Positions 10,409-29,128 of a stretch of 64,000 nucleotides of DNA are shown one piece after another (the stretch's first letter is position 1; the number at the start of each line of letters is the position of its first letter). Source of the stretch: a virus; the IMG/VR virus record IMGVR_UViG_3300044939_000165, positions 59,105 through 123,104 of that record; one strand, written 5' to 3'. The notes below the pieces were generated by a model that was given only the letters and a program-made list of their open reading frames with translations, did not search any database and was not told the origin of the DNA. Made by a program: the position numbers and the translations under genes.

Positions 10409-11233
10409 ATGTCTAAGACAACGAGCGCGCTGCTAGATCTGCATTTCCGCGATGTGGGCAACCATCCCATCCGAACGGCGCAAGAGGAGCATACTCTATT
10501 CACAGCATACCAAGAAGCACGAACACGTGCAGAGTTAGCGACCAACCCAGTCGAACGTGAGCAGTTCCAAAAACTGCGTGATACGTTGCGCAATGCGATC
10601 GCAAGTGGTTACTACCGTTTTGTAATCAAACAAGCGAGGCGCAAAGCGCACGACGACGCATTGTTCGCCGAACTGCTTTCGGCAGGCTATGAAGGGTTAC
10701 TCCATGCAATCACGCTATTTGACCCTGCGCGCGGTAATCGCTTTCTCACGTACGCAGCGAACTGGGTCAATGTAAAAATGCAAGAAGTCATTTACCGGAT
10801 GCGAACGGTTCACGTTCCAAACCACACCCGGAAAGCGATGCGGCGCACACGTGTCGAAAAAGAAAGAAAGCAAGTACTCGGTGAGCCCGTCGAAGACTTC
10901 GAAGAACCTTCAATCGCGTCGATTGACAACGTTGTAATTATAGATGACAACGTCGACATCGAAAGCGACGTTCAACGCCGACGCGTAGACCCCCTAGCCC
11001 TACTAGCGCAAGCACAGCTAACGCGAGTTGAGCGGCTAGTATTGATCTACGCGTTTGGACTTCGCGGAGGTGAGCCAAAAGACGCGCGGACAATTGGTCA
11101 GATCCTGTACGAGATCGACGGTTCACAAATGACTGCCGCGCGCGTGGAAGGAATACAAAAACGCGCTCTCAATCGTCTACGAGCTCATCTCTCTGAAGAA
11201 GAGATCAAGAGCCTCGCAGATATACTTAGTTAA
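10409..11233 (+). CDS. Sigma-70-family RNA polymerase sigma factor
   Basis: From ATG 10409 (MSKTTSALLDL) the product is 274 residues. A GTG at 10337 would add 24 residues but lacks a clear RBS. The region 2 core is plain: GYEGLLHAITLFDPARG, then FLTYAANWVNVKMQE and RTVHVPNHTRKA, matching the core-binding, -10-recognition and region 3 start of group 1-3 sigma factors. Near the C-terminus, LTRVERLVLIYAFGLRGG and a helix ending RALNRLRAHLSEEE fit region 4, which reads the -35 element. It is the only plus-strand gene in the first 16.3 kb, divergent from the replication operon and ending 3 bases from the convergent ParB-like gene. With an encoded RNA polymerase at 18667-26209, it is the obvious candidate specificity subunit, though it could also redirect the host enzyme. 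Confidence 0.92.
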   Translation: MSKTTSALLDLHFRDVGNHPIRTAQEEHTLFTAYQEARTRAELATNPVEREQFQKLRDTLRNAIASGYYRFVIKQARRKAHDDALFAELLSAGYEGLLHAITLFDPARGNRFLTYAANWVNVKMQEVIYRMRTVHVPNHTRKAMRRTRVEKERKQVLGEPVEDFEEPSIASIDNVVIIDDNVDIESDVQRRRVDPLALLAQAQLTRVERLVLIYAFGLRGGEPKDARTIGQILYEIDGSQMTAARVEGIQKRALNRLRAHLSEEEIKSLADILS

Positions 11234-11236
11234 GGA

Positions 11237-12295
11237 TTACTCTTCATCCTCAGAGAGTGCAGGCAACTCCATGAGGCCTGCGGCTTGCGCCAGCCCATCA
11301 CGTCGGCCTTTTTCATACGCAACGGTTTCTGGCTTGGCTTTTTCACTCGCCTTGAGTTTAGCAAGGCGAGCGTTTGAGAAATTGTAGATCGCAGCAAGAC
11401 TGGCTTTCGTGATCGGCTTAAGATCTTTAGCCGTAATTTCGTCAGGTAGCTTTACGCCACGTCCGCCAGTCTTTGTGTTCTTGTTCTTTCCTTTGCCCTC
11501 GTCTTGGGCTTGGGCCTGAGCTTGTTTATTGAGCCATTTTTCGATAAGAAACTTAAGTGCACGAGGCTCCAAATTCTCGTCAATCGCTTGCTGTGCAAAT
11601 GCCACTTGCACTTCAGGATCAGTGACGCGTTTGAGTTCGCGTACAACTGACGGAGCATAGCTCTTGAAGGGCTCTTTGGTGCCTTCGCGCACCATTTTTT
11701 GCACACGTTCATCAAGCTTGCCGACAGCAAGCACCTGGGAGACGTTGCCTTCCGAAATTGAAAGCACATCTTTGATCTCTGATTGTTTAAGACCGGCAGC
11801 AATGAGGTTCTGGAAGTACACATACTTATCCCAGAACGTCATTTGGTCTCGTTTGAGATTTTCTTGACCTGCGAGAATAAGGTACTCCTTCAGGTCTGAG
11901 ATCTCTTTGACCTTACACATAATGGTCTTAAGACCAGCTTTGATTGCTCCTTCACGACGACGACGGCCGGCGACAACTAGCCAAACTTCCTTATCCGTCT
12001 TCTTGTGCCGTGCGTAAGTTACGCACGGATCTTGGATCAATCCATCTTTCTTAATCGACGCAACGAAATCTTCGTCGACCAAAGCTGGCGCCGAACGCGC
12101 GTCAACTTTGCTGACGACGAGATCTTTAGGCGCAATCGTAATGACGCCTGACGCCGCAACCTCAAGTGGCAGCGGCAAGAACTCATACTCAAAACCGAGA
12201 GGATCAAGAACTCGCTCCGTGTCCGATTCGGACTGGACAGACGACTTCGATTTTGCCTTTACCTTGAGCTTGTTCTCCGTGCTCTCTTGAGTCAT
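11237..12295 (-). CDS. ParB/Spo0J-like DNA-binding protein
   Basis: This 352-residue protein has the N-terminal ParB/RepB/Spo0J nuclease-like or CTP-binding fold. Features are a beta-rich start with PKDLVVSK, a segment DEDFVASIKKDGLIQDP, and GRRRREGAIKAG near residues 108-119, the arginine motif of the family. A helical domain follows with QMTFWDKYVYFQNL and an HTH candidate KQSEIKDVLSISEGNVSQVL. The C-terminus is Lys/Gln/Gly-rich. AAGGAG lies just upstream of the ATG. It could segregate the element, silence or activate promoters, or act as a phage regulator. No ParA is seen in the window, so partitioning is not established. It is last in the minus-strand run starting with the SNF2 gene. Confidence 0.85.
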   Translation of the reverse strand: MTQESTENKLKVKAKSKSSVQSESDTERVLDPLGFEYEFLPLPLEVAASGVITIAPKDLVVSKVDARSAPALVDEDFVASIKKDGLIQDPCVTYARHKKTDKEVWLVVAGRRRREGAIKAGLKTIMCKVKEISDLKEYLILAGQENLKRDQMTFWDKYVYFQNLIAAGLKQSEIKDVLSISEGNVSQVLAVGKLDERVQKMVREGTKEPFKSYAPSVVRELKRVTDPEVQVAFAQQAIDENLEPRALKFLIEKWLNKQAQAQAQDEGKGKNKNTKTGGRGVKLPDEITAKDLKPITKASLAAIYNFSNARLAKLKASEKAKPETVAYEKGRRDGLAQAAGLMELPALSEDEE

Positions 12296-12602
12296 TTTGG
12301 TCTCCTTGGTCTAAAGTTTCAGAATCGTCAAACAAGACGAGCTCGCCACGCAAAATTTTTCGAATTACTGCAACAGCGGCTCGCTTGTTGATGAGGCTAA
12401 TCGGCAACTCGCTAACCGCACCCCCTTCGAGAAGATGACGGTAACATGCCCACATCTCTACCGCAACAATCTCCTCAGGATAGGGGGATGTAAAGTAAGC
12501 CGTAAATAAATAGTTGACGACGCGCTGGTGGATGCGCGCGTCGTAAAGAATGTGTGACTCATTCTTCAGTGCTCGAACGGCAACGTTCCGCAGTTCGGAC
12601 AC
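12204..12602 (-). CDS. Hypothetical protein overlapping the ParB-like gene
   Basis: About 132 residues if the GTG at 12602 is used; the frame is open to an ATG at 12653 as well. The body has helical text such as HQRVVNYLFTAYF and INKRAAVAVIRKILRGEL. The last ~30 codons lie in a different frame over the start of the ParB-like gene. Upstream it overlaps the end of the zinc-ribbon gene. Overlap at both ends suggests translational coupling. No family recognised; the exact start is uncertain. Confidence 0.5.
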   Translation of the reverse strand: MSELRNVAVRALKNESHILYDARIHQRVVNYLFTAYFTSPYPEEIVAVEMWACYRHLLEGGAVSELPISLINKRAAVAVIRKILRGELVLFDDSETLDQGDQNDSREHGEQAQGKGKIEVVCPVRIGHGASS

Positions 12603-12757
12603 TGATGAGATAGAGTCGCGGTTTCTTGAATGACAGCGTCGCACTTTGGGCACCGGCTGAGATTTGCCACATCAGCCATACGCCGTAAAGGCTCCGCTTC
12701 GTTTTCTTCTACCACTTTTGTATTGAAATTCGTGACAACGCCGTACTTCTCGCCCAT
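12566..12757 (-). CDS. Small zinc-ribbon protein
   Basis: This 63-residue protein has two CX2C knuckles, CPKCDAVI and CPNCGTLPFEH, separated by about 14 residues, a zinc ribbon. The N-terminus (MGEKYGVVTNF) has no recognised fold. GGAGG lies 5-6 bases before the ATG. Ribbons of this size often act as transcription or nucleic-acid-binding accessory proteins, but the function is not known here. It lies in the minus-strand run between nuclease 2 and the ParB-like gene. Confidence 0.7.
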   Translation of the reverse strand: MGEKYGVVTNFNTKVVEENEAEPLRRMADVANLSRCPKCDAVIQETATLSHQCPNCGTLPFEH

Positions 12758-12814
12758 AGGCCCCTCCGTTGTTGTAAGTTGAGCACGGCATCATAAAGAC
12801 GTACTCCGTACTAG

Positions 12815-13627: not shown

Positions 13628-14295
13628 TCATCCTCCACGTAGCCTTCCGGCTGGACTGGATCTTTAAAAGAGTCCTCAGCATATTGCGGGCCCTCTTTTA
13701 CAGCTGCCTGCGAACGCGCAATAATGTCCTCAAAAACGGCGCGATCGTCGGGCGACATCTCGCTTGGATCAACGATCAACGCACTTTCAGATGGCACATC
13801 AGGCGTACGAGACACAGAGGGCGGCGCATAATCATCTACCAGATCTTCAGCCTTTTTTTCGGAGTCTTCAAACGCCGGTACAATGACACTAGCCCTTGGC
13901 ATATGTGGATGTTGCGCAGCCCACATAAGCGCAGGTGACGACGCGGCCTGCTTATCGAGTACACGATGTTTTGGCGCAGGCGGAATCGGTCGAGGAGGTG
14001 CTATAGGCCGAAAAAGATCATTTTTTGGTACTTGTTGTGGTGGAGTTGGACGCGTTGCTGAACGCGAAACCTGACTTCCCTGCGTTGGACGTGAAATAGA
14101 TCGAGTGGCGGATGCCCCATCAGTAGGCGCTGTATCAGCATTTTTAACCGTAACAACGAGGTCAAACTTAGAAGGATCTGCGCTTTCGTTAACAATCACA
14201 AAATTCTCAGGCGTTGCCTCAACAACGAAGCCTTTAGAGCGAACATACAGAGCTAGCGCCTTAATTACATCGTTGTGTTCAAGAGTTAGACGCAT
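13624..14295 (-). CDS. Hypothetical protein with Pro/Ser-rich linker
   Basis: From ATG 14295 (MRLTLEHNDVIKAL) the product is 223 residues. The first ~55 residues look like a small alpha/beta domain. A long disordered region rich in Pro, Ser and Arg follows, and the C-terminal part is acidic. The start overlaps the end of the SNF2 gene by 17 bases and the stop overlaps the nuclease 2 start, so it is coupled to both. This suggests an accessory partner of the helicase or nuclease, but no family was recognised. Confidence 0.65.
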   Translation of the reverse strand: MRLTLEHNDVIKALALYVRSKGFVVEATPENFVIVNESADPSKFDLVVTVKNADTAPTDGASATRSISRPTQGSQVSRSATRPTPPQQVPKNDLFRPIAPPRPIPPAPKHRVLDKQAASSPALMWAAQHPHMPRASVIVPAFEDSEKKAEDLVDDYAPPSVSRTPDVPSESALIVDPSEMSPDDRAVFEDIIARSQAAVKEGPQYAEDSFKDPVQPEGYVEDE

Positions 14296-16339
14296 GTTCA
14301 ATAGCCTCCACGTTAGCAATAGGGCGTGAAACGTTAGCAGCGTACTTACATCCCTTTCGGAAGGGAAGAATTTTGTTGCGCGCGCACGTCATTTGCTGAT
14401 CGCAACCCGCACACGCAACTAAGTCAGTAAGAGTAAGTGTGATATTTTCCTTGAAAGTCAAAACTTGAGCCACATAGCGGTCCAAACCCCATGTAGCGTC
14501 TGAAGTGAGCAAGCGATAGACCGTCATCGCACGGCGCTGTCCAGGCCGATTATTACGATCCATAGCTTGCCGATACTGAAGTGGATCCCACGGCAATGAG
14601 TAAAAAATCGTATAATTAGCTGCCGTTAGCGTGACACCAATGCCGGTACGTATTTGCCCAATGTAAACTCGGCACTTAGTGTCGTTTTGAAAACGATCAA
14701 TGCGTTTCTGCCGAGAGAGTGTTTGACCGTCGACGCGCACATAGTCAACGCCTAAAGCTTTAGTCGCTGTCTCAAGATCATCAAGTTCTTCAAGATAATT
14801 TGCCCAAACAATAACTTTATTAGTTTCGTCAGTATTCAAAATTAGAAAGAGCTGTTCTTTGTACAAGTCTAGCTTAGGATTTTCAATGTCGCGTAATACA
14901 CAGCGCTCAGGTGCGGATTGCACAACCTCACATTTTTTGGTGTATGGACGAATTTTGGCCTCGACACACGCCTCCATACGGGGGCACGCATCGCAAATTG
15001 CGTAATCTGCACCTTGAATGACAAAACCAGAGAGTACCTGAAGCAGCTTGGTGACACGTGTAGCGCCGTGTGGAAGTCGCACTGACTGCCGCTGCGCTGT
15101 AACCTCTTCAGTGACACGTGCTGGCTCCGCATAAATCAACTCTGGCGTAACAGACATCGCCATTTCCATAACAAGCTCATTGTACCGAGCACGTTGTGCA
15201 ACGCCGAGGTCGTAGTACAGATCAACAGTCGTAACTGGCGGCAAATCAAGGCAATCGGCTTTCTTCATGCGGAGTGCGACGTTACGGAATCGCTCGTTGA
15301 GCTCATTGAGGAAACGAAAGCCAACGACAATATGCTTATTTTTCCGCGAATAAACAACGTGGCGTTCTACAAACTTATGGTACGATAGTGGTATAAGTGC
15401 CGGAGACAGGAAATAAAGTTGGCCGTAAAGCTTACGTGGATCATCGCCAGGCGTACCACTTAAGCAGTAACGTCGCACAGCTTTAGCCGATAGCTCAATC
15501 GCCGCTTGTGTTTGACCTGAGGTCCAATTACCTAAGTAATGACTCTCATCGGCAATAATGGTGTCGTAGTCGAGCGCGTATAAAGGATGTGCTGCAAGGC
15601 GCGTAAAACGCGCAATATCCTCTTGAGTAAGAGGAGCAAGTTTATAACGTTCTCGCTGCGCAGGTGTAATCGCTAACTCTCGCACCGCATTCTTCGCCGC
15701 CTCGCGTTCCATACGTGCGCGAGTGTACGACACCAATACAATATCAGCAGTCTGTGCTGCCACTTCAGCCTCTGGCGTACCGTCCCAAATTACAGCCGTC
15801 CACGTACCGTTTGAACAACGCGCAACCTCTCTCACCCATGATTCCAATACAACAGGTGGTCCAAGCACAAGAGCTTTTCGAAAATTTTTTTGAAAGCGCA
15901 GTATGCGTAGGGCATCGATCACAGTTCGCGTCTTACCTGTGCCCATGTCCCAATCAAGGAACGAGCGCCACCAGTAAACAAGGCGCGCAATACCAAGGCG
16001 CTGATGACTATACGGTGTAAAGTTAGGTGCGAAAAAATCGTCGTTAACTGGCAAAGGCACCGGTTCATGATGATTCCATGCAGTAACAGCCGCTTCCCAT
16101 GCTTTATCAGCAGCACGTACCGCAGCAAGATGTCCTAGAGCGGCATCATCCCATACTGCCTGCGGAGCTAACTTACGAAGATCTTCAAACGCCCACTTCG
16201 CGAAAGGAAAATAAGCGGGAAATAGCCATGTACCATTGTCATACACGCCTCCCCATGCTCGTGCAAGAAACGATTGTTCTGGCACTGCTATACGGAAAAC
16301 AGGTATAGATTTTCTAAGTAGAGCGCCTTCTACGATCAT
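14279..16339 (-). CDS. SNF2-type DEAD/DEAH helicase with two cysteine knuckles
   Basis: The 686-residue protein shows the superfamily 2 set: YSHQRLGIARLVYWW, Walker A DMGTGKT (K136), DESH box at D264-E265, LSGTPGDDP, and in the second lobe IRTGIGVTLTAANYTIFY and QYRQAMDRNNRPGQ near residue 597. It should be an ATP-driven dsDNA translocase, in repair, recombination or remodelling. Two insertions carry the same cysteine spacing, CX2CX5CX11C, each followed by or containing KI-x-P-[YF]-x-K: one begins CDACPRMEAC and the other CAGCDQQMTC near the C-terminus. These could bind zinc or an iron-sulphur cluster. It is the first gene of a minus-strand run and starts 27 bases from the divergent portal gene. 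Confidence 0.92.
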   Translation of the reverse strand: MIVEGALLRKSIPVFRIAVPEQSFLARAWGGVYDNGTWLFPAYFPFAKWAFEDLRKLAPQAVWDDAALGHLAAVRAADKAWEAAVTAWNHHEPVPLPVNDDFFAPNFTPYSHQRLGIARLVYWWRSFLDWDMGTGKTRTVIDALRILRFQKNFRKALVLGPPVVLESWVREVARCSNGTWTAVIWDGTPEAEVAAQTADIVLVSYTRARMEREAAKNAVRELAITPAQRERYKLAPLTQEDIARFTRLAAHPLYALDYDTIIADESHYLGNWTSGQTQAAIELSAKAVRRYCLSGTPGDDPRKLYGQLYFLSPALIPLSYHKFVERHVVYSRKNKHIVVGFRFLNELNERFRNVALRMKKADCLDLPPVTTVDLYYDLGVAQRARYNELVMEMAMSVTPELIYAEPARVTEEVTAQRQSVRLPHGATRVTKLLQVLSGFVIQGADYAICDACPRMEACVEAKIRPYTKKCEVVQSAPERCVLRDIENPKLDLYKEQLFLILNTDETNKVIVWANYLEELDDLETATKALGVDYVRVDGQTLSRQKRIDRFQNDTKCRVYIGQIRTGIGVTLTAANYTIFYSLPWDPLQYRQAMDRNNRPGQRRAMTVYRLLTSDATWGLDRYVAQVLTFKENITLTLTDLVACAGCDQQMTCARNKILPFRKGCKYAANVSRPIANVEAIEHASNS

Positions 16340-16366
16340 GTGTTACTTCTTTCGGTTAGAGACGCA

Positions 16367-18088
16367 ATGACCATCGACAGCGGAGTGAACTATGACGATA
16401 TGCTGCTGGGTTTCGGAGGACGTCATGCGATGTCGCATGCGAACCCCATGTTTGACTACTTAACGGGGTTTGTACCTCGGAAGCTCAAAGACCTGTTCAA
16501 ATGGGCAGAATACCTTGGATTCCATTCAGCGCATATTTACGGCGTAGTCCGTAAATTCGGCGAATACCCAATCACACGATTCATTTACGAATCGAATTCG
16601 GATGAAGAAAAAGCGCGCCACAAAAGACTCTTCGAAGAAACTCTACGACTCAAAGGCTTTCTAACGCTAGTAAGCTACGACGTCTGGCTATATGGCAACG
16701 CGTTCGTTTCAGTTTATGAGCCGATCAAACGCGAACTGGTATGTGAGTACTGCGGCACACGAGAAGACATCTCAGCGGCATCATACAAATTCAATCTCCC
16801 GAAACTTCAATTCACGCACGACTGCAAGCAGTGTAAACGCAAAGGTGTGATCTCAAAGGTTGAAGACTACAAACTCAAAGACCCTACTAAGCTCACACTA
16901 ATTCGATGGGATCCAAAATTAATTGACATTGAACACAACCGAGTCACTGGCGAAAGTGTCTATTACTACCAGATCCCACGCGATGACATAGCAAAGGTGC
17001 GAGCCGGCAACAAAACATTCATCAATCACATGCCGATGGAGATCTTGCGCGCAATGCAAGAGCGCAAGACTTTTCGATTTGATGAAGGTTCACTTTATCA
17101 TCTAAAAATGCCAGGACCTGCTGGTGTACAAGCTCAATGGGGATTTCCTCCAATCACGAGTGCAATTAAAAATTTCCTCTTTACAGCAATACTTCGACGA
17201 GCAAATGAAGCGATTGCACTCGAATACATCACACCATTTAGAATCATCCATCCAATAGCGGCTAGCGGACAAGGAGACCCTATTACGACCATTCCACTTG
17301 ATCGTTGGAAAATGGAAATGGAACGTAACTGGCGATTGTTCCGTCGAGATCCGCTACGTATTCAATTTTCGCCTGTACCTGTCGGCGTTCAGAACATTGG
17401 CGGTGAAGGTCGTGCGTTGCTCACTCTCGGCGAACTACAAGAAGCTGAAAGAGCAATTGTACTTTCACTCGGCGTACCGATGGAGTTTCTTACAGGGGGT
17501 CTTGGGCAAACCCGAGGTGAAATCACATTGCGAATGATTGAAAACCAACTACAAACACATATTGAAAATCTCAACGCACTCATCCAGTGGATTGAACGCA
17601 AAGTTGCACAATTCATGGGTTGGGCGTCAATCAAAATGCGCCTTGCTGATTTCAAAATGATTGACGACATCGAAAATAAACAACTCAAAATTCAACTATG
17701 GCAAAGCCAACTAATTTCGAACACCACAATGGCAGAAATGCTTGACATTGATCTTGATCATGAACGTAAACAGCGACGCGAAGATACTCTAGCCGACACT
17801 CGGGCTGAACAAGAAACCCAAGTTGCACTTCAAAAACTTCAACAATCACTTTCAATACAAGCACAGCAACAAGCGCTTCAATCGCGGAGCAGTTTCGCGT
17901 ACGATCAACAGGCAATCATCGCCAAAGCACAACCAATCGCTGAAGAACTAGCACAATACGACGCAGGTACAAGGCGTTCACGGCTTGATTCACTCAAAGG
18001 CGAAGACTTCATTATGTACTGCATCACAAAAGAATTGCTACAACAAATAGAGCAAAACCAATTGGCTTACATGAAGGCGCAGGGTTGA
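16367..18088 (+). CDS. Portal protein
   Basis: From ATG 16367 (MTIDSGVNYDD) the product is 573 residues; a GTG at 16340 is an alternative. Portal proteins form the dodecameric ring at one capsid vertex through which DNA is packaged. Portal-like features are the N-terminal FDYLTGFVP segment, WLYGNAFVSVYEP, IRWDPKLIDIEH, GFPPITSAIKNFLFTAILRR, and SLGVPMEFLTGGLGQTRGE followed by long helices. CEYCG and CKQCKRKG form a zinc-binding insert. The C-terminus is Gln-rich and coiled-coil-like. It opens the long plus-strand virion block. No terminase gene precedes it here. Confidence 0.8.
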   Translation: MTIDSGVNYDDMLLGFGGRHAMSHANPMFDYLTGFVPRKLKDLFKWAEYLGFHSAHIYGVVRKFGEYPITRFIYESNSDEEKARHKRLFEETLRLKGFLTLVSYDVWLYGNAFVSVYEPIKRELVCEYCGTREDISAASYKFNLPKLQFTHDCKQCKRKGVISKVEDYKLKDPTKLTLIRWDPKLIDIEHNRVTGESVYYYQIPRDDIAKVRAGNKTFINHMPMEILRAMQERKTFRFDEGSLYHLKMPGPAGVQAQWGFPPITSAIKNFLFTAILRRANEAIALEYITPFRIIHPIAASGQGDPITTIPLDRWKMEMERNWRLFRRDPLRIQFSPVPVGVQNIGGEGRALLTLGELQEAERAIVLSLGVPMEFLTGGLGQTRGEITLRMIENQLQTHIENLNALIQWIERKVAQFMGWASIKMRLADFKMIDDIENKQLKIQLWQSQLISNTTMAEMLDIDLDHERKQRREDTLADTRAEQETQVALQKLQQSLSIQAQQQALQSRSSFAYDQQAIIAKAQPIAEELAQYDAGTRRSRLDSLKGEDFIMYCITKELLQQIEQNQLAYMKAQG

Positions 18089-18089
18089 A

Positions 18090-18500
18090 ATGGAAGACTG
18101 GATGAACTCACAACAAGCAAAACACGAAGAGACTATCCGAGGACCACGTATAGGCTTTTCAGAACCGGCGGAAGAACCCCCGCGCCGGATGAAAGTTTTT
18201 CACGAAACATACTCAGTGTTTCGGCCTTGGAACAGTTGTAATCGTTGCAAAGATGCAATTCAAGAACGACCTGAACTATTACCTGAACAAGGCGATTACA
18301 TTTGTCCACACACGCGGCACAACGAGTATATTGAACTAATAAACCGGCTGCGAAACGCAGGCGATGCAGGGCCCTGGAAACTACACGCACGCGAATTTTC
18401 AAATGATCGAGGTGAAATCTACGTTACGATCGCGTGGGAAGAACCCGAAGTAACGCAAAATGAAGCGCGGATTCGTTCTCGGGGTGTGCCGCGGTTGTAA
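18090..18500 (+). CDS. Small Cys/His-containing hypothetical protein
   Basis: This 136-residue protein starts one base after the portal stop, so it is probably translationally coupled. CNRCKD and a later CPHTRHNEY could form a zinc site. The C-terminal part (GEIYVTIAWEEPE) is beta-like. No family recognised. Its stop codon lies within the loop of a strong hairpin. Confidence 0.65.
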   Translation: MEDWMNSQQAKHEETIRGPRIGFSEPAEEPPRRMKVFHETYSVFRPWNSCNRCKDAIQERPELLPEQGDYICPHTRHNEYIELINRLRNAGDAGPWKLHAREFSNDRGEIYVTIAWEEPEVTQNEARIRSRGVPRL

Positions 18501-18514
18501 CCACGGCACACCCC
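18481..18514 (+). terminator. GC-rich hairpin at the end of the portal operon
   Basis: A 14-bp stem with one mismatch, arms 18481-18494 and 18501-18514, with a short loop holding the TAA stop of the preceding gene. There is no T-run after it, so it may be a weak or protein-assisted terminator or an mRNA 3' end stabiliser. Confidence 0.5.
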
Positions 18515-18603
18515 GAAGTGCGCAGCAATCATTATCACAATCACCGCGCAACAAAAATGACAAAACGAAAAACCGCGCGTATTAGCACGTCACTCTCACC
18601 TCC

Positions 18604-18629
18604 TTTAGCGGACACAAAACCCCGCTAAA
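18604..18629 (+). promoter_or_regulatory. Hairpin in the leader of the RNA polymerase gene
   Basis: TTTAGCGG at 18604-18611 pairs perfectly with CCGCTAAA at 18622-18629 across a 10-base loop. It lies about 40 bases before the RNA polymerase start, in a 166-base gap. It is followed by AAACTTTT, so it could terminate upstream transcription or act as a leader element. No SD is obvious before the RNA polymerase ATG. Confidence 0.45.
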
Positions 18630-18666
18630 AACTTTTACCACGTATTGTCTTTAAATTTTGATTGAG

Positions 18667-21600
18667 ATGAGTGCACCAACGCCCGTACTGACCAGCGCAG
18701 CTACACTTCGCCAAAAACTGCACGAAAAGACAACTAAGGCGTTAACTACTGTTTTCCCCCTTGAACTCAAGGGTAAAACGCTGGAAATCAAAGATGTACG
18801 TGTAAATTCACAAGATTTTGCACCATCGGACGAATACAACGCACTTATGAAAGGTTCATCACTTTATGAACCAGTCAAAGGCACACTTGTACTTAAAGAC
18901 GCAAACGGAAAAATTCTCGACGAAGCAAAAAACTTTACGCTAGCGCACATACCGTACTTAACATCGCGCCACACCATCATCGTAGATGGCAACGAATATC
19001 AAATTGCAAACCAATTACGCCGCAAACCGGGAGTTTACACCCAGCGAGCTGACAACGGCGAACTCAAAACAGTATTCAACCTCGGGCGCGGAAAAAACTT
19101 CAATCTCACATTTAATCCTGATAAAGGAACATTCTACCTTCAATATGGTACGTCAAATTTGCCTCTTTACGCCGTATTGCGAGGCCTTGGCGTTGAGCAC
19201 AGCCAAATTGCTAAGCACTTAGGCGAAGGCGTAGCGCGCGCCAATGAAAAAGAGTACGGACACCAAATTGCGCCAACAATTAACAAGCTTTACACAAAGC
19301 TAGAGCATCCAGCTGTGCTGGATCCAAACGCGTCACATGAAGCAAAAGTCGAAGCTATCAAAAAGCACTATAACCAATCAACGCTTGATCCTGAAGTAAC
19401 GAGCGAAACACTTGGTTCTGCGCACACTAAGGTCGCACCTGAGACGCTGCTTAGCGCTGCGAAGAAAATACTCGATGTCCATGCTGGCAAAGCGCAAGTT
19501 GATGACACTGACTCACTAAAATTCAAAACATTTCATGCGCTTGATGATTTCATCTCAGAACGAATTCGTCTGTCCTCTCGTCAATGGATACCTAAAGCAA
19601 AACTAGCACTAACAAACAAAAACGTAATCCGAGACGCCCTTAAACCTGCGCCGTTCTCGGATGCAATCCGTAAGTTCGTCACAACATCGTCACTTTCTAG
19701 CGTTCCCATGGGAATCAATCCAATGGAAATCATCGATCACGCAGTGAAAGTGACGAGTCTCGGTGAAGGCGGAATTCCCTCAGACCGCGCAATCCCCCTG
19801 GACGCGCGCATGATCCACAACACGCACTTTGGTGCACTGGATCCAATTCGCACACCTGAATCAAACCACTCAGGTGTAGATATTCGGGCAACAATTGCCG
19901 CGCACCGTGACGACAAAGGTAACCTCTACACAGTACTACGCAATGTAAAGACTGGTAAAGAGGAATTTATACGAGCTGGCGACTTGCACAAATATGTCGT
20001 TGCGTTTCCTCACCAAGAACTCAAAGGCACAGTCGACGCATTCGTCAATGGCAAACAAACACGTGTACCTGCAAGTCAGGTGACACACCAACTTGATCAC
20101 GTCAAGTACATGTACTCACCAGCAACAACGCTAATCCCATTGATCCACTCAATCCAAGGTAACCGCGCGATCATGGGATCCAAGATGGGCACGCAAGCGT
20201 TGCCGCTCGTGGAGCGCGAAGCACCACTTGTGCAAGTTAAATCACATCATCCAGATGGCCATTCATTTGAAACAATTTATGGCCATATGATCGTGCCGAC
20301 TGCACCGGTTTCGGGGACCGTCGCGAAGATCGACAATCAATTCATATACATTAAGCCACATGCTGAAAAACGAGCAGCAGCAGGCGACGCTGGACTCATT
20401 AAGGTGCCCTACTATCAAAAATTTCCGTTTCCTTCGAAAACGTTCCTAGATCACACTGTCAGCGTAAAGCCTGGTGACAAAGTTAAAGAAGGTCAGCGCC
20501 TTGCAGAGTCAAACTACACGCGTAACAGTGTGCTTGCATTAGGCAAAAATCTACTCGTTGGATACTTACCGTACTACGGCTACAACTCAAACGATGCCGT
20601 CGTAATTTCGGAGTCCGCAGCGCGAAAACTAACCAGCGAACACATGTATCGCGAGGTTTTTCCGATTAGTACGGGCACCGAACTGAACCGTGCAAAGCAT
20701 CAACTTTACTACGGTGCTAAATACCCCGCGTCAATGTACAGTAAACTCGATGAGAGCGGTGTAATCAAAAAAGGCACAAAAGTTGATCCGAAAGACTTAC
20801 TTGTAGCGGGCCTAATGAAACAATCTGTAACTGGTACCGACGCCATACTTGGGCGTCTTAGTAAATCACTTGTCAAACCATTCAAAGACATCGCACTGAC
20901 TTGGGAACACAGTGTGCCTGGTGAAATTATCGATGTAGTACGCTCAAATAAACAAATTACAATCCTTGTAAAAACACGCGAACCTATGCAAATTGGCGAC
21001 AAGCTCGCAGGTCGCTACGGTAATAAGGGTGTCGTCGCCAAAATCGTACCAGACCACGAAATGCTGCGTGATGAACAAGGGCGTCCACTTGATCTGTTAA
21101 TGACGTCGGCCGGAGTCGTATCACGTATCAACCCCGCGCAAATTATTGAAACAGCTGTTTCAAAAGTCGCTGAAAAAACAGGAAAACCAATCGTATATGA
21201 CAACACGGCAGGCCATGACGCTGTCAAATGGGCCCGTGACCTACTGAACAAACACGGCGTCAAAGACAAAGAAGTACTCTACGATCCAATACTCAAACGT
21301 AAAATTATTGGGCCCGACAGCAAAGGCGTACTAGTCGGTAAACAGTATATTTATAAACTGTTCAAAAGTACTGACACCAATTTCTCTGGTCACGGTGTCG
21401 GACCCTATGACATCAACGAACAGCCTCTCAAGACTGGGGGAGACGAAAGCGCTAAAAGCATCGGTAAAATGGAATTTGATGCGCTGCTCGCACACAACGC
21501 ACGCAGCTTTCTGCGCGAAGCAACAACAGTTCGTGGTCAAAAGAACGATGAATATTGGAAAGCCGTGCAAATGGGATTGCCGCTACCAGAACCAAAGCCA

Positions 21601-23166
21601 TCGTTTGCCTTCAATAAGTTTATTGGAATGCTAGAAGGCGCAGGCGTAAAGGTAGATAAGCGTGGTTCAAAATTCTCGCTACTACCAATGACTGACAAAG
21701 ATGTGCTAACGCGCAGTTCGGGAGCAATCGAAAATAACACAACGGTGCGCGCGAAAGATCTCAAACCAATGCCCGGCGGTCTATTTGATCCTCGTAAGAC
21801 CGGCGGTCTACAAGGCGCACTTTTTTCTCATATTGATTTGCACGAGCCTATCCCAAATCCTGTATTCGAAGAGCCCGTACGCCGTCTGCTCGGCATGACT
21901 GAAACACAATTCAGGACCGCACTGCGAACTAACGGGGGTGCATGGTTTCGCCATGAACTCTCGAAGATCGATGTACCGCGTAAACTTCGTGAACTACGTG
22001 AACAGCTCAAAACCGCCAAAGGAGCTGCGCTCGACGATGTAGTCAAGCAAATCAAATACTTAGAAGCACTTCAAAAGCATAATTTAAACCCCGCCGACGC
22101 CTACGTGATCAGCAAGGTACCAGTCATTCCTCCAGTATTCCGTCCAATTTTGCCAAGCGTTCACGATCCGTCGCAACTAATGGTATCCGACGTAAATAAA
22201 CTCTACAGTCAACTTCTTGATTCGAACAAAACGCTGAAGACAACAGCTGTACCATCAGATTTAGGCAAACATCGTTTGGATCTCTACGAAAAAGTCGAAG
22301 AGCTATATGGTATAGCGCTGCCTCGCGACCCAAAACTTCAACAACAGAAAGTTAAAGGCTTACTTGCAAATATTTCAGGCGTCGGTACACCAAAAGGAGG
22401 TTTTTTCCAGCGTAAGCTAATGCGTCATACACAAGATGTATCGGGACGTGGTACTGCTGTACCCGATTCAAACTTGAGTATGGACGAAGTTGGTATTCCG
22501 GAGGATATGCTGTGGCAGGCACTTGACAAACTAATTGTCGCGCGGTTGATCCGCACCGGTTACCCTGCGCTCCAAGCGCGTGAACTAGTCAATGAACGCG
22601 CGCCTGCCGCGCGAAATGCGCTGTTGGAAGAAATTCGCGAGCGCCCAGTACTTATCAATCGAGCGCCCACACTGCATCGAGGGTCGATTATCGCTGCGTA
22701 CGCTAAACCCGTACCCGGCAAAACAATACGCGTGTCCTCATTCGCCGAAAAAGGTATGAACCTAGACTACGACGGTGACACTTTGCAGGTACACTTCCCA
22801 ATCGGTCCTGAAGCTGTGCAAGAAGCTAAGCAAATGACTCTTAGCAACCTATTGTTAAGTGATCAACAACGGAACAAACTTATGGTCTTTCCGCAACACG
22901 AAGCTATCATCGCATTCACGCTCGCATCAAAACACACAATTCCTACTGGACCAGTGCGCAAATTCAAAACGAGAGAAGACGCACTCGCAGCATATCGACG
23001 TGGCGAATTGAAGCTATCAGACGCTATCGAAATTGAAAACGAAACCGAAAAGCGCGCTGATAACTATAGTGAAGGACCACACCTCACTGCGCCAGTTTAT
23101 TCCATTAGCCCTGACGAAGCCTTATTCTATTTTCCGCCAGAGTTGCTGACAGGCGTAAATAACTAA
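18667..23166 (+). CDS. rpoB-rpoC: RNA polymerase beta subunit fused to N-terminal part of beta'
   Basis: The 1499-residue product (ATG 18667, MSAPTPVLTSA) combines two subunits. Residues 1 to ~990 follow beta: HIPYLTSRHTIIVDGNEY, the rifampicin-region equivalent DPIRTPESNHSGVDIRATI, NRAIMGSKMGTQALP, GDKLAGRYGNKGVVAKI with the active-site lysines, and the C-terminal SIGKMEFDALLAHNAR. From ~1005 it follows beta': LTRSSGAIENNT, LKPMPGGLFDP, VIPPVFRPIL, DVSGRGTAV, RPVLINRAPTLHRGSI, and the catalytic NLDYDGD (D1367, D1369, D1371) that binds Mg2+. The N-terminal zinc ribbon of beta' is missing. Beta is about 350 residues shorter than in E. coli. The chain ends after the metal motif; the rest of beta' is at 24410-26209. 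With the encoded sigma factor this should transcribe phage genes. Neighbours are virion genes. Confidence 0.97.
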   Translation: MSAPTPVLTSAATLRQKLHEKTTKALTTVFPLELKGKTLEIKDVRVNSQDFAPSDEYNALMKGSSLYEPVKGTLVLKDANGKILDEAKNFTLAHIPYLTSRHTIIVDGNEYQIANQLRRKPGVYTQRADNGELKTVFNLGRGKNFNLTFNPDKGTFYLQYGTSNLPLYAVLRGLGVEHSQIAKHLGEGVARANEKEYGHQIAPTINKLYTKLEHPAVLDPNASHEAKVEAIKKHYNQSTLDPEVTSETLGSAHTKVAPETLLSAAKKILDVHAGKAQVDDTDSLKFKTFHALDDFISERIRLSSRQWIPKAKLALTNKNVIRDALKPAPFSDAIRKFVTTSSLSSVPMGINPMEIIDHAVKVTSLGEGGIPSDRAIPLDARMIHNTHFGALDPIRTPESNHSGVDIRATIAAHRDDKGNLYTVLRNVKTGKEEFIRAGDLHKYVVAFPHQELKGTVDAFVNGKQTRVPASQVTHQLDHVKYMYSPATTLIPLIHSIQGNRAIMGSKMGTQALPLVEREAPLVQVKSHHPDGHSFETIYGHMIVPTAPVSGTVAKIDNQFIYIKPHAEKRAAAGDAGLIKVPYYQKFPFPSKTFLDHTVSVKPGDKVKEGQRLAESNYTRNSVLALGKNLLVGYLPYYGYNSNDAVVISESAARKLTSEHMYREVFPISTGTELNRAKHQLYYGAKYPASMYSKLDESGVIKKGTKVDPKDLLVAGLMKQSVTGTDAILGRLSKSLVKPFKDIALTWEHSVPGEIIDVVRSNKQITILVKTREPMQIGDKLAGRYGNKGVVAKIVPDHEMLRDEQGRPLDLLMTSAGVVSRINPAQIIETAVSKVAEKTGKPIVYDNTAGHDAVKWARDLLNKHGVKDKEVLYDPILKRKIIGPDSKGVLVGKQYIYKLFKSTDTNFSGHGVGPYDINEQPLKTGGDESAKSIGKMEFDALLAHNARSFLREATTVRGQKNDEYWKAVQMGLPLPEPKPSFAFNKFIGMLEGAGVKVDKRGSKFSLLPMTDKDVLTRSSGAIENNTTVRAKDLKPMPGGLFDPRKTGGLQGALFSHIDLHEPIPNPVFEEPVRRLLGMTETQFRTALRTNGGAWFRHELSKIDVPRKLRELREQLKTAKGAALDDVVKQIKYLEALQKHNLNPADAYVISKVPVIPPVFRPILPSVHDPSQLMVSDVNKLYSQLLDSNKTLKTTAVPSDLGKHRLDLYEKVEELYGIALPRDPKLQQQKVKGLLANISGVGTPKGGFFQRKLMRHTQDVSGRGTAVPDSNLSMDEVGIPEDMLWQALDKLIVARLIRTGYPALQARELVNERAPAARNALLEEIRERPVLINRAPTLHRGSIIAAYAKPVPGKTIRVSSFAEKGMNLDYDGDTLQVHFPIGPEAVQEAKQMTLSNLLLSDQQRNKLMVFPQHEAIIAFTLASKHTIPTGPVRKFKTREDALAAYRRGELKLSDAIEIENETEKRADNYSEGPHLTAPVYSISPDEALFYFPPELLTGVNN

Positions 23167-23179
23167 AACGAGGACTCTA

Positions 23180-23665
23180 ATGTTCGACTTCTTAGATGAC
23201 TTACTTGACCCTACAAAATCAAAGTCCTTTGAAAACGCCACGCCAGCAATGTGCGCGCATGTCTCGCGCCTCCAGGACATTCTAACAAAGAAGTATTCGT
23301 TACTACTTGCGTACATTCACTACGGCGACCAGTTACGAGCGTTTTATCGCGACGGGATCTACCAACATTTCCAAGACCACATCAAAGAAGAGCGTGAATC
23401 TATATATAAATTGAACAAGAAGATCACAGCGCTTGGCGCAGACGCACACGCCAATCCGTCACCTCCAGCGATTGTCGGACTAAATGACCCTCGTGCGGTA
23501 TTCAAAACACTACTCTCTATGGAACTTGAAGTTGTAGCTAAATGGTCAGAGCTATTCCGAGCAACTACCAATGACGTAGCACTCAACGCCTTAGCACAAG
23601 AAGGTGCCTTCATAGATCAACAGCACGCTGACGATATGCGCCGCTACCTTCGGAGTGGATGCTGA
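23180..23665 (+). CDS. Ferritin-like protein
   Basis: This 161-residue, mostly helical protein resembles ferritin-like four-helix proteins. One helix has LLLAYIHYGDQLRAFY, followed by HFQDHIKEERESIYKL, then a central MELEVVAKWSELF and a last QEGAFIDQQHADDMRRYL. Glu and His occur at plausible di-iron positions, but I cannot confirm the full ligand set. It could store iron, protect DNA like Dps, or be a structural protein using the fold. It lies between the two RNA polymerase genes and overlaps the next start (TGATG). The sequence ACTAAAACGAGGA before it also precedes the gene at 29169. Confidence 0.6.
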   Translation: MFDFLDDLLDPTKSKSFENATPAMCAHVSRLQDILTKKYSLLLAYIHYGDQLRAFYRDGIYQHFQDHIKEERESIYKLNKKITALGADAHANPSPPAIVGLNDPRAVFKTLLSMELEVVAKWSELFRATTNDVALNALAQEGAFIDQQHADDMRRYLRSGC

Positions 23666-24042
23666 TGGCAGATTTAAATAACATTGTACGCGGCATAACT
23701 ACACGACTAAAAAAACGTCAAAGAGGCTTTCACTTCGAAAAAGACCCAGGCTTTTACGGCGTAACAAAAAGCTTCAACACTGCTGCAAGACAAAAATTTG
23801 CTAACGAAGTTAGAGCGCGTGCAATCCGCAAAGTTGCTACTAAATACGCTCTGCTTGATGAGTCTGGTGAACCAATCGAAGCGCTTGCTAAACTTTTCTC
23901 TGAAAATAATTTTGGCTACGGTGACACTCCAATAACCCCAAAACGGACAGGTGATCCAATTTGGGGTGCCTCTATGGGGTTACCAAATGAACCTGGTGAT
24001 CGCAACGGGCTAAGTCCTAACATTTCGTACGGAGGAGTTTGA
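23665..24042 (+). CDS. Basic hypothetical protein between RNA polymerase genes
   Basis: 125 residues from ATG 23665, whose A is the last base of the previous stop. The N-terminal half is strongly basic (RGITTRLKKRQRGFHF) and the middle has the helix ARAIRKVATKYALLDESG, a form of a motif seen in four nearby proteins. The C-terminus is Gly/Pro/Asn-rich. The next gene starts at 24042 on the last base of its stop. It may be an internal virion or DNA-binding protein; no family recognised. Confidence 0.65.
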   Translation: MADLNNIVRGITTRLKKRQRGFHFEKDPGFYGVTKSFNTAARQKFANEVRARAIRKVATKYALLDESGEPIEALAKLFSENNFGYGDTPITPKRTGDPIWGASMGLPNEPGDRNGLSPNISYGGV

Positions 24043-24377
24043 TGCTTACGAAAAAAGCACTTGATAACGCACGAGCACGTGGAGCTTATAAAATCTTGAC
24101 CCTTTACGGCCTGAATAAAATTGGTAACGTACTTTCTACACTCGGCAACGCAGCAACACGCGCATGGACTACTGGTGCCAAAGCATATCAGCGTGGACGC
24201 GGCGGTATGATGCAAAATCTTGGTAAAGGCATTGCAGCTGGTGCTAAGGCGTTTCAGCGAGCAGGTGGTTTGCCGGCTGCGGGCAAAGCTCTCGGCGCTG
24301 CGGCAGCCACTGGCGCAGCAGCATATGGTGCAGGTCGAGTGTTCGGAGCAGGGCAAAGAGCCTCATTTCAACAATAA
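24042..24377 (+). CDS. Small Ala/Gly-rich membrane-active-type protein
   Basis: 111 residues from ATG 24042, with GGAGGAG just upstream. The N-terminal helix includes AYKILTLYGLNKIGN. The rest is basic and Ala/Gly-rich (GAAAATGAAAYGAGR), like a glycine-zipper segment that can insert into a membrane. Similar Gly/Ala zippers occur in several proteins at 26.9-37.8 kb and at 48936. It is part of the three-gene insert between RNA polymerase pieces. Function unknown. Confidence 0.65.
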   Translation: MLTKKALDNARARGAYKILTLYGLNKIGNVLSTLGNAATRAWTTGAKAYQRGRGGMMQNLGKGIAAGAKAFQRAGGLPAAGKALGAAAATGAAAYGAGRVFGAGQRASFQQ

Positions 24378-24409
24378 CATGCGCCACTGAGAACACGTAG
24401 TCTTTGCCT

Positions 24410-26209
24410 ATGGCGACGACAGTTGGACATTTTTTAATCAATGATGTAATGCCTAAGGGCTACGAAATCCGTGGCCCAATTACAAACAAAGAACTACATG
24501 ACCATCTTGTCAATCTTGCCAAAACTGACCCACAAAAATACGTTTCAACAATACAAGCACTTAAACGACGTGGGGACGAAATTGCAACGCTTGAAGGAAT
24601 TTCCGTCGGTTTAGACGACATCGAGCCTAATTACAAAGAACGTGATGCTATCATTCGTCCCGCACTTGCAAAACTTGAAAAACTCAAAGACCCAACAGCG
24701 CGTCAACGATTGATTGTTGAAACACAAGAGAAACTACTCGCTCATACTAAAAAACACCCCGGTTCAATGACACATATGGCATTATCTGGCGCGCGCGGGA
24801 ATCCAGCCCAACTTATGAAAATTGTCGCAACGCCGCTTGCAACAGTGCACCCTAAACATGGCGTGATTCACCAACTAATTGATCGATCTTACGCCGAAGG
24901 ACTCACTCCAGCGCAGTACTGGATGACTGGCCCAGAAATCCGCGAAAACGAAGTTAAGGCTCGCATTTCAGTATCGGAGCCTGGCGAAATGGCCAAAGTA
25001 CTCGTTGCAAACACTATTTCCACTGTTGTGACGACAACTGACTGCGGAACCATGAACGGCGTAAAGATGTCAATCGATGACAGCCATATCCTAGACCGAT
25101 TTACACAGGCTGATCATGGTTTACCCCGCAATACTCTAGTCACGCCACAGATTGTTCAACAACTAAAAGCCAAACATGTTGATCGTCTACTTGTACGCTC
25201 ACCTATGACGTGCATCGCTCAAAGCGGTGTTTGCCAAATGTGCCAAGGGCACAATGAAAAAGGAAAATTACACCAAATAGGTACGCCTGTCGGCGTACGA
25301 GCCGCGCAAGCTATGGCTGAACCGTTAACACAGATGGCGCTTTCATCACGTCACGGTACACTTACAATCAAATCAACGAATAAATTTCCAACAGGACTAA
25401 AAGGTGTACGCCAATTATTAGAAGTGCCCGCATCATTTCGACATGAAGCAGTTCTCGCTCCTGAGCATGGAACTATAACGAAAATTGAGAAAGCCCCGCA
25501 AGGAGGGCACTACATCTATATTGGCGAAAAGAAAGTATATACCCATCCTGACCTAACATTGCGTGTAAAAAAAGGTGACGTGGTTGAACGCGGTGACGCG
25601 CTAACCGATGGCGTGCCTCATCCTGCAAAAATAGTCGGATATAAAGGCCTCGGTGCTGGACGCGCGTATTTTGTTGACGCAATGCACAACCTCTACAAAA
25701 ACGAGGGCATTAATCTTGATCGACGTCATCTCGAACTACTTGCAAAAAGTGAAATTAATCATGTACGTCTACTTGACACAGATCCAAACCACCCTGAACT
25801 ACTAAAAGGCGACATTATCAACTATAACGCCTTTCGCGAAGCCTATCGCGAAGGATCAACGCGCGTACCGCTAGATAATGCTGTCGGACAGCGACTTGGA
25901 CAAGAAGTGCTGCATCATACCGTTGGTACTCTTATTACGCCTGCTCTAGCACGAGAACTAGCCTCACATGGCGTAACTGAGGTTTACATCAATCGCAGCA
26001 TGCCCCCAGTTGAATTCGTAATGAAACCATTTACTATGAATCCTTTGTTAGAAAAGGATTGGATGGCGCGTCTTGCTCACCGTTATCTCAAAAATACAAT
26101 CCTAGAAGCCGCACATTTTGGTGAAACTTCAAACATTCACAGCACACATCCCGTACCAGCATATGCTTACGGCGCGGAATTCCGTCATGGTTCCAGTGGT
26201 ACATTCTGA
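24410..26209 (+). CDS. rpoC: RNA polymerase beta' C-terminal part
   Basis: From ATG 24410 (MATTVGHFLINDV) this 599-residue protein continues beta' where the fusion protein stops. TTVGHFLINDVMPKG matches the E. coli TTVGRALL region. Near residue 128 comes ALSGARGNPAQLMKI. The second zinc site is complete: TTDCGT and CIAQSGVCQMC (~268). GVRAAQAMAEPLTQMALSS and RHG cover the trigger-loop region with the catalytic His kept. The bridge-helix segment, normally almost invariant (GARKGL and DTAL), is strongly changed here (TGPEIRENEVKA). The C-terminal GYKGLGAGRAYFVDAM, LAKSEINHVRLLD and a terminal clamp-like helix follow. There is no clear SD. Together with the gene at 18667 it supplies the catalytic core; alpha and omega are not seen. 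Confidence 0.95.
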   Translation: MATTVGHFLINDVMPKGYEIRGPITNKELHDHLVNLAKTDPQKYVSTIQALKRRGDEIATLEGISVGLDDIEPNYKERDAIIRPALAKLEKLKDPTARQRLIVETQEKLLAHTKKHPGSMTHMALSGARGNPAQLMKIVATPLATVHPKHGVIHQLIDRSYAEGLTPAQYWMTGPEIRENEVKARISVSEPGEMAKVLVANTISTVVTTTDCGTMNGVKMSIDDSHILDRFTQADHGLPRNTLVTPQIVQQLKAKHVDRLLVRSPMTCIAQSGVCQMCQGHNEKGKLHQIGTPVGVRAAQAMAEPLTQMALSSRHGTLTIKSTNKFPTGLKGVRQLLEVPASFRHEAVLAPEHGTITKIEKAPQGGHYIYIGEKKVYTHPDLTLRVKKGDVVERGDALTDGVPHPAKIVGYKGLGAGRAYFVDAMHNLYKNEGINLDRRHLELLAKSEINHVRLLDTDPNHPELLKGDIINYNAFREAYREGSTRVPLDNAVGQRLGQEVLHHTVGTLITPALARELASHGVTEVYINRSMPPVEFVMKPFTMNPLLEKDWMARLAHRYLKNTILEAAHFGETSNIHSTHPVPAYAYGAEFRHGSSGTF

Positions 26210-29054: not shown

Positions 29055-29083
29055 TCCTACATTCACAACTATTTCACCGAATA

Positions 29084-29128
29084 TGAATGCCTGTTATAGT
29101 ATGCATAGTAACAGGCATTCATTTTAAT
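29084..29128 (+). terminator. Rho-independent terminator
   Basis: A perfect 13-bp stem, arms 29084-29096 and 29109-29121 with a 12-base loop, followed by TTTTAATAAAA. It lies 30 bases after the stop of the H1-like modular gene. Confidence 0.85.

Follow-up and report, generated by a model that had tools for sequence, protein, structure and literature searches.

One fused multisubunit RNA polymerase and two sigma-70-family factors in an mReC-type tailed phage: a proposed case of packaging and sigma exchange

Phages with an RNA polymerase of their own and phages with sigma factors are kept apart in reviews of the field (2020, 2021, 2026), the former being described as having no sigma-70 homologue and the latter as having no polymerase. 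The mReC lineage, described in 2020 by Weinheimer and Aylward with 97 published contigs (PMC7481178), consists of tailed-phage contigs with beta and beta', united in one deep clade that the paralogue tree of that paper places as sister to bacteria, under a rooting that its authors call speculative; in the subset where they were detected, the MCP belongs to PF07068 and TerL to PF03237. The text of that paper never mentions sigma and has the word 'fusion' for crAssphage only; its available parts say nothing of packaging into virions, of alpha or omega content, of inteins or of a lost zinc ribbon. For the cultured Salmonella phage Arash (PMC10585845, OQ632216), mass spectrometry of virions gave 128 unique peptides for gp206, 40 for gp216 and 24 for gp10 (234 aa), with 32 for the portal, 30 for the MCP and 2 each for DNA ligase and primase (PMC10585845); we used unique peptides only, because the spectra column is odd (primase, with its 2 unique peptides, is given 932 spectra). 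As far as the available parts of the Arash paper go, gp196 is not reported from virions, the polymerase genes are annotated 'beta' and 'beta prime' with no fusion noted and no holoenzyme proposed, and carry-over of abundant infection proteins is also allowed for (PMC10585845).

Here we describe a related locus in a 64,000-nucleotide stretch of viral DNA (the window; positions 59,105 to 123,104 of IMG/VR record IMGVR_UViG_3300044939_000165), the features of which are collected in Table 1. A first-pass annotation had placed beta, beta' and a sigma-70-like factor within 10409-26209, and Pfam, PDB and Foldseek matches bear out all three components. The gene arrangement needs correction, since a single frame carries beta and the N-terminal half of beta' (beta'N), with the remainder (beta'C) standing apart. 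This fusion and split, the second sigma factor and the published virion proteomics of a relative did not figure in that annotation.

Table 1. Features of the polymerase locus and its surroundings, in window coordinates unless stated otherwise
Feature	Coordinates	Strand	Evidence or remark
sigma1, sigma-70-family factor, 274 aa	10409..11233	+	has regions 2 and 4; region 3 degenerate
SNF2-type helicase	14279..16339	-	SNF2-rel_dom, E=4.9e-17
Portal protein	16340..18088	+	phmmer, E=4.9e-95 to annotated Arash portal gp204
Small ORF of 136 aa with Cys pairs, flanked by portal and polymerase	18090..18500	+	conserved position
beta–beta'N fusion	18667..23166	+	1,499 aa from ATG; Pfam domains; PDB matches to bacterial beta and beta'
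Beta flap-tip helix, where sigma region 4 is predicted to dock	20824..20880	+	alignment to Salmonella beta flap tip; translation
Beta catalytic lysine motif GDKLAGRYGNKG	20995..21030	+	alignment, translation
beta'N portion	21673..23046	+	alignment; spans site of deleted N-terminal zinc ribbon
beta' clamp coiled coil, where sigma region 2 is predicted to dock	22189..22308	+	model, alignment
Active-site motif NLDYDGD (DxDGD, Mg2+ site)	22759..22779	+	translation
Ferritin-like protein between polymerase genes	23180..23665	+	PF00210, E=1.6e-10
Cassette ORF, 127 aa	23659..24042	+	conserved in window's subclade
Cassette ORF, 112 aa	24039..24377	+	conserved in window's subclade
beta'C (F-loop, bridge helix, second Zn site, trigger loop)	24410..26209	+	Pfam; Arash gp216 match
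Second beta' zinc-binding site, with four cysteines retained	25043..25243	+	alignment, translation
Trigger loop LTQMALSSRHG, His kept	25325..25357	+	alignment, translation
Second sigma, in virion-gene block	contig 37170-37868, outside window		ortholog of Arash gp10, E=2e-24

The longer polymerase ORF, listed with a TTG start at 18658 and read here from its ATG, encodes a complete beta (RNA_pol_Rpb2_6, E=1.7e-44, plus Rpb2_2 and Rpb2_3) followed in the same frame by the N-terminal catalytic half of beta' (Rpb1_1 and Rpb1_2), and is 36% identical to Arash gp206 over 97%. The beta'C ORF, listed as 24404-26209, matches Rpb1_5 (E=5.2e-16) and Rpb1_4, and its match to Arash gp216 covers 100% of its length. 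The two are parted by a conserved three-gene cassette, a ferritin-like gene (found in the same place in relatives) and two small ORFs. Constraint on the ORFs of the locus is strong (pN 0.10-0.12 against pS 0.83-0.88, relative to sequences at 81-83% protein identity), and given this and the E-values the polymerase and sigma matches are not due to chance. Structure models were made for two products, beta'N and sigma1; that of beta'N has a pLDDT of 80 and reaches Z scores of 22-24 to bacterial beta'. One beta and one beta' locus each were found in 15 of the 15 genomes tested, where the two polymerase sets of the phiKZ/AR9 type did not occur; the contig to which the window belongs is possibly incomplete. 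Neither alpha nor omega was found over cut-off in 23 genomes. An omega-like match at contig 15512-15619 (E=0.008, sub-threshold) lies inside a 505-aa frame and was judged a chance hit. On sequence, the phage core would thus appear to have no alpha or omega of its own, and host alpha may be used.

The first-pass description of the core motifs as close to cellular forms holds for the DxDGD motif (kept in all mReC sequences aligned), for GDK...GNKG and for the second zinc site, but it does not extend to the bridge helix, trigger loop and rifampicin pocket, which the alignment shows to be altered, nor to the N-terminal zinc ribbon of beta', which is deleted from every mReC beta' sequence with coverage there. 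The changes in the rifampicin pocket predict a phage enzyme that is insensitive to the drug. The clade keeps its catalytic residues together with the clamp coiled coil and the flap tip. In the model the coiled coil is formed by helices 173-190 and 194-212 and aligns with that of Salmonella beta'; the residues with which host beta' touches sigma region 2 have not been conserved there.

The polymerase sits in a head-gene block beside the portal gene throughout the clade, the SNF2-type helicase occupies the same position in Arash, Vibrio phage D69 and many relatives, and the contig carries portal, terminase and capsid homologues. The MCP homologue has no Pfam match, and TerL matches PF05876 (1.4e-15) better than PF03237 (0.0016). 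Homologues of the 136-aa ORF stand in the same place in about 45 loci; it has no Pfam or PHROG match and is a candidate accessory subunit.

Two sigma factors accompany this core. Sigma1 matches Sigma70_r2 over the Pfam cut-off, while its region 4 falls below (13.9 bits vs 24.1), a second stretch aligning to region 4 of RpoS; its best PDB matches are RpoS, HrdB and SigA, and the Foldseek matches of its predicted model are sigma chains, so that sequence and model together place it, by regions 2 and 4, in the sigma-70 family. Arash gp196 is its counterpart by synteny, and a homologue occurs in 24 of 26 large relatives. The second sigma, found in the same proportion of large relatives (24/26) and in D69, adjoins homologues of the Arash virion proteins gp8 and gp12. 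It matches Sigma70_r3 over cut-off and a PHROG labelled 'sigma factor', and aligns to SigA regions 2-3; its assignment to the sigma-70 family on regions 2, 3 and 4 depends on the region 4 side on weak matches to a C-terminal HTH. The aromatic melting residues of region 2.3 are largely lost in the gp10 type, which may for that reason not open promoters in the manner of sigma-70.

Arash has a promoter-like, strand-specific motif, GGTATAAG, in 31 copies (3.4 expected), of which 30 lie on the minus strand, and the motif recurs in its close relatives; the window's own subclade yielded no promoter motif. The first k-mer pass of this search used crude gene calls, and an EM search of the window's own genome returned a weak pattern only (LL 85 vs a null of about 70). 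That pattern resembles a dispersed palindrome and not a promoter.

Polymerase and gp10 sigma in particles are published for Arash only, the polymerase of which is 36% identical to that of the window. By analogy, their presence there suggests injection by the phage of an already assembled transcription machine. On our reading the locus belongs to an mReC-type tailed phage and encodes the only multisubunit RNA polymerase of that phage, with a core formed by beta–beta'N and beta'C, and it is reasonable to postulate that this one core is packaged as a sigma holoenzyme and that a newly made sigma reprograms it afterwards. By extrapolation from Arash, the small, dedicated gp10-type sigma would bind the core in the late phase, and the two would be packaged into the particle; the holoenzyme would then be injected with the DNA and start early transcription independently of the host polymerase. 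Sigma1, on this model made in the cell, would later bind the same core, whether newly made or injected, and redirect it to another promoter class. One core with sigma exchange would thus do the job of the two separate cores of phiKZ and AR9. The components, the domain architecture, the synteny, the retained catalytic and sigma-docking elements, the clade placement and the clade-wide presence of both sigmas are observed here; the core–sigma pairing, the promoter use and the order of events are proposed parts of the model, which as a whole we consider somewhat probable. The broader claim, that a fused alpha-less core packaged with an early-gene virion sigma and reprogrammed by an infection-made sigma is a third phage transcription strategy, we advance tentatively, as possible but short of probable. 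If true, a self-contained sigma-switching system is carried from cell to cell in the virus particle.

Both sigmas might instead serve the host core, as is thought for sigma-encoding jumbo phages without a polymerase, and the phage core might use an unrelated specificity subunit or none. The diverged sigma contacts of the coiled coil would agree with this, yet the coiled coil and flap tip themselves are kept, both sigmas co-occur with the phage core in nearly all large relatives, and gp10 sigma and core share one particle in Arash; we regard such a division as unlikely. Slightly less probable again is that the polymerase is simply an intracellular enzyme of the late phase, carried over into Arash particles. 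In the parts of the paper available, its authors raise the possibility and cytoplasmic enzymes do appear at trace level, but by unique peptides gp206, gp216 and gp10 are comparable to portal and capsid and far exceed ligase and primase (PMC10585845), and the position of the polymerase genes beside the portal throughout the clade also speaks against it. That the gp10-type sigma is a packaging or injection adaptor, holding the core inactive in the head and serving as no promoter factor, would account for its lost region 2.3 aromatics and its place among virion genes; an adaptor would not need the regions 2 and 3 and the C-terminal HTH that it has kept, and we think this more doubtful still.

Beta' sequences of the phages form one viral clade (support 100/100), to which the sampled bacteria, themselves monophyletic (97/92), are sister; the beta tree agrees (phage clade support 100). 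Bacterial matches are all 25-33% identical, with no phylum preferred. The first-pass annotation would have been undone by a tree nesting the genes inside one bacterial genus, a placement that neither tree gave; its separate lineage stands, whereas its suggestion that this lineage copied cellular transcription does not follow, as a sister relation gives no direction. By these sequence comparisons the polymerase is a separate viral lineage. It is not a new one: cellular models recognise beta and beta' on a tailed-phage contig, as for the published mReC phages, a match of defining characters. The polymerases of YerA41, Carin-5, Rhizobium and Va2 joined near the phage clade on long branches that carried warnings, and for this reason we claim no kinship; the annotated sigma of Carin-5 has no Pfam sigma match. 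A recent capture of host rpoB, rpoC and sigma genes, for which the recognisably bacterial sequence might plead, is ruled out by the trees, the flat identity to bacteria and the clade-wide ribbon deletion, and merits next to no credence. As little is due to an assembly, sequencing or frameshift artefact in this metagenomic contig, which we rejected: the architecture with separate beta'C recurs in 67 loci, including the independent isolates Arash and D69, in which the identical fusion and split were found, and the ORFs are open and under purifying selection.

Among known systems, Arash and the Vibrio phages D69, D148 and D181 have the fusion and separate beta'C as in the window (D148 and D181 were compared for polymerase genes only, the second sigma in D69), and Arash and D69 share with it the order sigma1–helicase–portal–polymerase and the second sigma in the virion block. 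This group differs from the window in sequence (about 36% identity), in the genes that lie between its polymerase ORFs, and, for Arash, in having a clear GGTATAAG motif that a search of the window's subclade did not return. Fusion of beta and beta' predominates across about 100 relatives, one clade having a single 2,030-aa chain (L034, L040, L043, L045, L066) and another being re-split inside beta'. The Helicobacter-type rpoB–rpoC also joins beta and beta' in one chain (a single 2,896-aa ORF at the Helicobacter locus, L174), but in most members of the phage group the joined chain stops behind the catalytic domain of beta', and the phage sequences belong to a separate clade. The crAss-like and YonO polymerases are likewise phage-encoded single polypeptides with both barrels; the crAss-like enzyme has, according to the mReC paper, no detectable similarity to cellular COG models (PMC7481178), unlike the single-chain mReC members, which are full-length relatives of bacterial beta and beta'. 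These chain architectures show how freely a universal core is cut and joined, which bears on arguing pre-cellular origins from subunit splits. The polymerases of phiKZ and AR9 resemble this one as multisubunit phage enzymes without alpha or omega, the packaged form of which starts early transcription (PMC7598289, PMC9209446). They differ in having two cores, with at least four to five polypeptides, where the window has one fused core, and their sigma-like subunits gp68 and gp226 have no sequence similarity to sigma, where this phage has sigma-70-family factors (PMC7598289, PMC9209446); the first-pass remark that phiKZ and AR9 have no sigma-70 partner agrees with the reviews. As cultured members have both polymerase and sigmas, the assembly of an alpha-less core, its sigma pairing and its survival of packaging are testable. 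Sigma-encoding jumbo phages, for their part, have no polymerase, unlike the phage described here, whose clade unites a multisubunit polymerase of its own with sigma factors.

The window covers positions 59105-123104 of a virus record 123,104 bases long. Its locus at 10409-26209 brings together a sigma-70-family gene (here sigma1, the counterpart of gp196 in the cultured Salmonella phage Arash), a ParB-like gene, several smaller genes, an SNF2 helicase, the portal and the polymerase genes. The first-pass annotation held that beta, beta' and sigma are all encoded here, and domain matches recover all three; beta and beta' do not, however, stand as two standard genes, since the N-terminal part of beta' is fused to beta and the remainder (beta'C) is separate. 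The polymerase is under purifying selection, with pN of 0.10-0.12 and saturated synonymous sites against relatives at 81-83% protein identity. The three genes lying between its two ORFs are kept throughout the window's own subclade, whereas Arash and the Vibrio phage D69 carry different genes at that point.

Features of the polymerase locus and of related loci (window coordinates unless marked)
Feature	Position	Content
sigma1	10409-11233	sigma-70 family
ParB-like gene	11237-12295	tail-to-tail with sigma1
Small ORF, portal–polymerase gap	18090-18500	Cys pairs
beta–beta'N fusion	ATG 18667	1,499 aa; Pfam order Rpb2_2, 3, 6 (beta), then Rpb1_1, Rpb1_2 (beta')
Genes between polymerase ORFs	23180-24377	ferritin-like gene, 127-aa and 112-aa ORFs
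beta'C	24410-26209	separate ORF; Pfam Rpb1_4 + Rpb1_5
Repeat ORFs just past beta'C	26874-30128	726 and 319 aa; repeated Ala/Lys-rich segments
gp10-type sigma	contig 37170-37868	ortholog of Arash gp10, E=2e-24
Carin-5 annotated sigma	L132:1041-1628	Cobetia phage; adjoins polymerase
Intein-like inserts in relatives, beta RTPE site		L010, L093, L094
Intein-like inserts in relatives, beta GDK site		L046-L048, L052-L055, L058, L065, L083, L091, L097
Intein-like inserts in relatives, beta' DxDGD site		L022, L091, L097, L104

Several neighbours merit description in their own right. About 45 relatives share the small Cys-pair ORF, whose product is a candidate accessory subunit or head protein; a small gene occupies that position in Arash and D69 as well. 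The 726-aa repeat ORF has weak glycine-zipper matches, and both repeat ORFs possibly encode internal head or injected proteins. The ParB-like gene adjoins sigma1 in several relatives as well. Furthermore, 13-bp palindromes are evenly spaced genome-wide, with a half-site that differs per phage: TTCACG[S]CGTGAA in genome G025 (L295-L301; 45 sites at ≤1 mismatch, 0.2 expected; mean spacing 2.7 kb, CV 0.43 vs 0.97 for random placement), TTAACC[S]GGTTAA in genome G011 (L285-L294; 49 sites at ≤2 mismatches, CV 0.48), and TTTACG[S]CGTAAA in the window's contig with L002-L004 (47 sites, 3.8 expected, spacing less regular). By analogy with Noc or parS-binding proteins, the ParB-like protein may bind them.

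By tblastn, the fusion is matched across 96% or more of its length in four isolates, Arash and the Vibrio phages D69, D148 and D181, at 35-36% identity. Their beta'C is likewise separate, and two IMG/VR scans supplied about 100 further loci. The window's arrangement recurs at 67 loci where both parts were seen (some contigs being counted as two loci); five loci have a single chain of about 2,030 aa, 19 have beta plus about 115 beta' residues in one ORF with the remaining beta' elsewhere, and one has beta itself split. Because the breaks fall inside beta' rather than at the beta/beta' boundary, the three-piece forms most likely descend from a fused ancestor. Many loci keep the gene order sigma1–helicase–portal–polymerase. 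Intein-like inserts of about 325-540 aa interrupt catalytic motifs in relatives, three of them within one 2,837-aa ORF (L097), and each of the three insert-bearing ORFs scanned against NCBIfam (L010, L022, L097) matched intein-containing families; the window's polymerase copy has none.

The core motifs had been described as close to cellular forms, which holds for DxDGD, the beta GDK...GNKG motif and the second zinc site, but not throughout. Every sequence of the mReC (multi-subunit RNAP-encoding Caudovirales) that covers the site of the N-terminal beta' zinc ribbon shows a deletion of it (aligned rows L057 and L110 do not cover the site), and the bridge helix, near-cellular in the single-chain clade, has diverged in the subclade of the window. 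The trigger-loop histidine and beta flap-tip helix are retained, and rifampicin-contact residues are altered. In bacteria, sigma region 2 binds the beta' clamp coiled coil; the beta'N model (pLDDT 80) matches bacterial beta' 12-639 at Z 22-24, this coiled coil included. A single polymerase core was found in 15 of 15 genomes checked, and among 23 genomes no alpha or omega match passed the cut-off.

The suggestion of a separate lineage is borne out by the beta' tree (IQ-TREE under LG+C20+F+G4; 22 phage and 29 bacterial sequences, with 4 RPB1-type viral ones as outgroup), in which the phage clade (100/100) lies outside the sampled bacteria as their sister (97/92), the rows nearest the window being IMG/VR contigs L010, L103 and L072. 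The beta tree gives the same placement, and a broader quick tree, to which other phage polymerases attach via long branches, agrees. The best 80 bacterial loci, 25-33% identical, come from at least 15 phyla. PMC7481178 presents the same picture of the mReC; a position sister to bacteria does not fix the direction of gene movement. L126 (OR844998) and L127 (OR846602) were submitted as phage sequences, of Staphylococcus and Enterococcus, but seem to come from bacterial chromosomes, since both cluster with Bacillota in the quick tree and ribosomal-protein and elongation-factor genes flank rpoB/rpoC in the Staphylococcus-labelled record.

Sigma1 exceeds the Sigma70_r2 cut-off, with PDB matches to RpoS/SigA and Foldseek matches to sigma chains. 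Of the two Arash sigmas, gp196 is encoded close to the polymerase and gp10 within the virion block. The gp10 ortholog of the window's contig lies outside the window and is flanked by homologues of the Arash virion proteins gp8 and gp12. Sigma1-like genes occur in 24 of 26 large relatives, as do gp10-type genes, the latter also in D69; the gp10 type retains region 3 and, by weak matches, a C-terminal HTH, and has largely lost the region 2.3 aromatics. The Carin-5 gene annotated as an RNA polymerase sigma factor has no Pfam sigma match.

Arash has 31 copies of the promoter-like motif GGTATAAG vs 3.4 expected, and 30 of them are on the minus strand. The motif is often extended to GGTATAAGTAAAGTGTAA; where upstream regions were examined, it lies 34-68 bases ahead of a start codon. 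The motif is strand-specific in close relatives too, and D69 and the relative L037 carry a variant; the window's genome yielded no counterpart. GGTATAAGTAAAGTGTAA lies upstream of minus-strand genes of Arash (L005, L006, L280-L282) and sometimes overlaps a plus-strand TAAAATA, as if marking divergent promoters.

Components, architecture, conservation and clade are established for the window's polymerase itself; packaging is known from published data on its relative Arash. In the virion proteomics of PMC10585845, the fusion (gp206) has the most spectra and 128 unique peptides, beside 40 for beta'C (gp216), 24 for the 234-aa gp10, 32 for the portal, 30 for MCP and 2 each for ligase and primase, and gp196 is missing from its virion protein table. 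From annotated lengths we compute about 8.4 unique peptides per 100 aa for gp206, 6.6 for gp216 and 10.3 for gp10, where MCP has 9.8 and the portal 5.5, a comparison resting on unique peptides, the spectra column being inconsistent for some proteins. Its authors propose either early transcription or carry-over to account for the polymerase in particles. It is reasonable to postulate that the gp10-type sigma and the core would form a packaged holoenzyme, that this may be injected, and that sigma1 would later redirect the core.

In the literature searched (most subscription journals lay outside it) we found no discussion of a polymerase combined with sigma factors. The mReC lineage carrying this combination is already known, yet the combination represents a new variation within it, because the 2026 review PMC13282480 and earlier reviews alike describe polymerase-encoding jumbo phages without sigma homologues and sigma-encoding ones without a polymerase. 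Whereas the reviewed jumbo phages encode one or the other, the window's lineage encodes both together.
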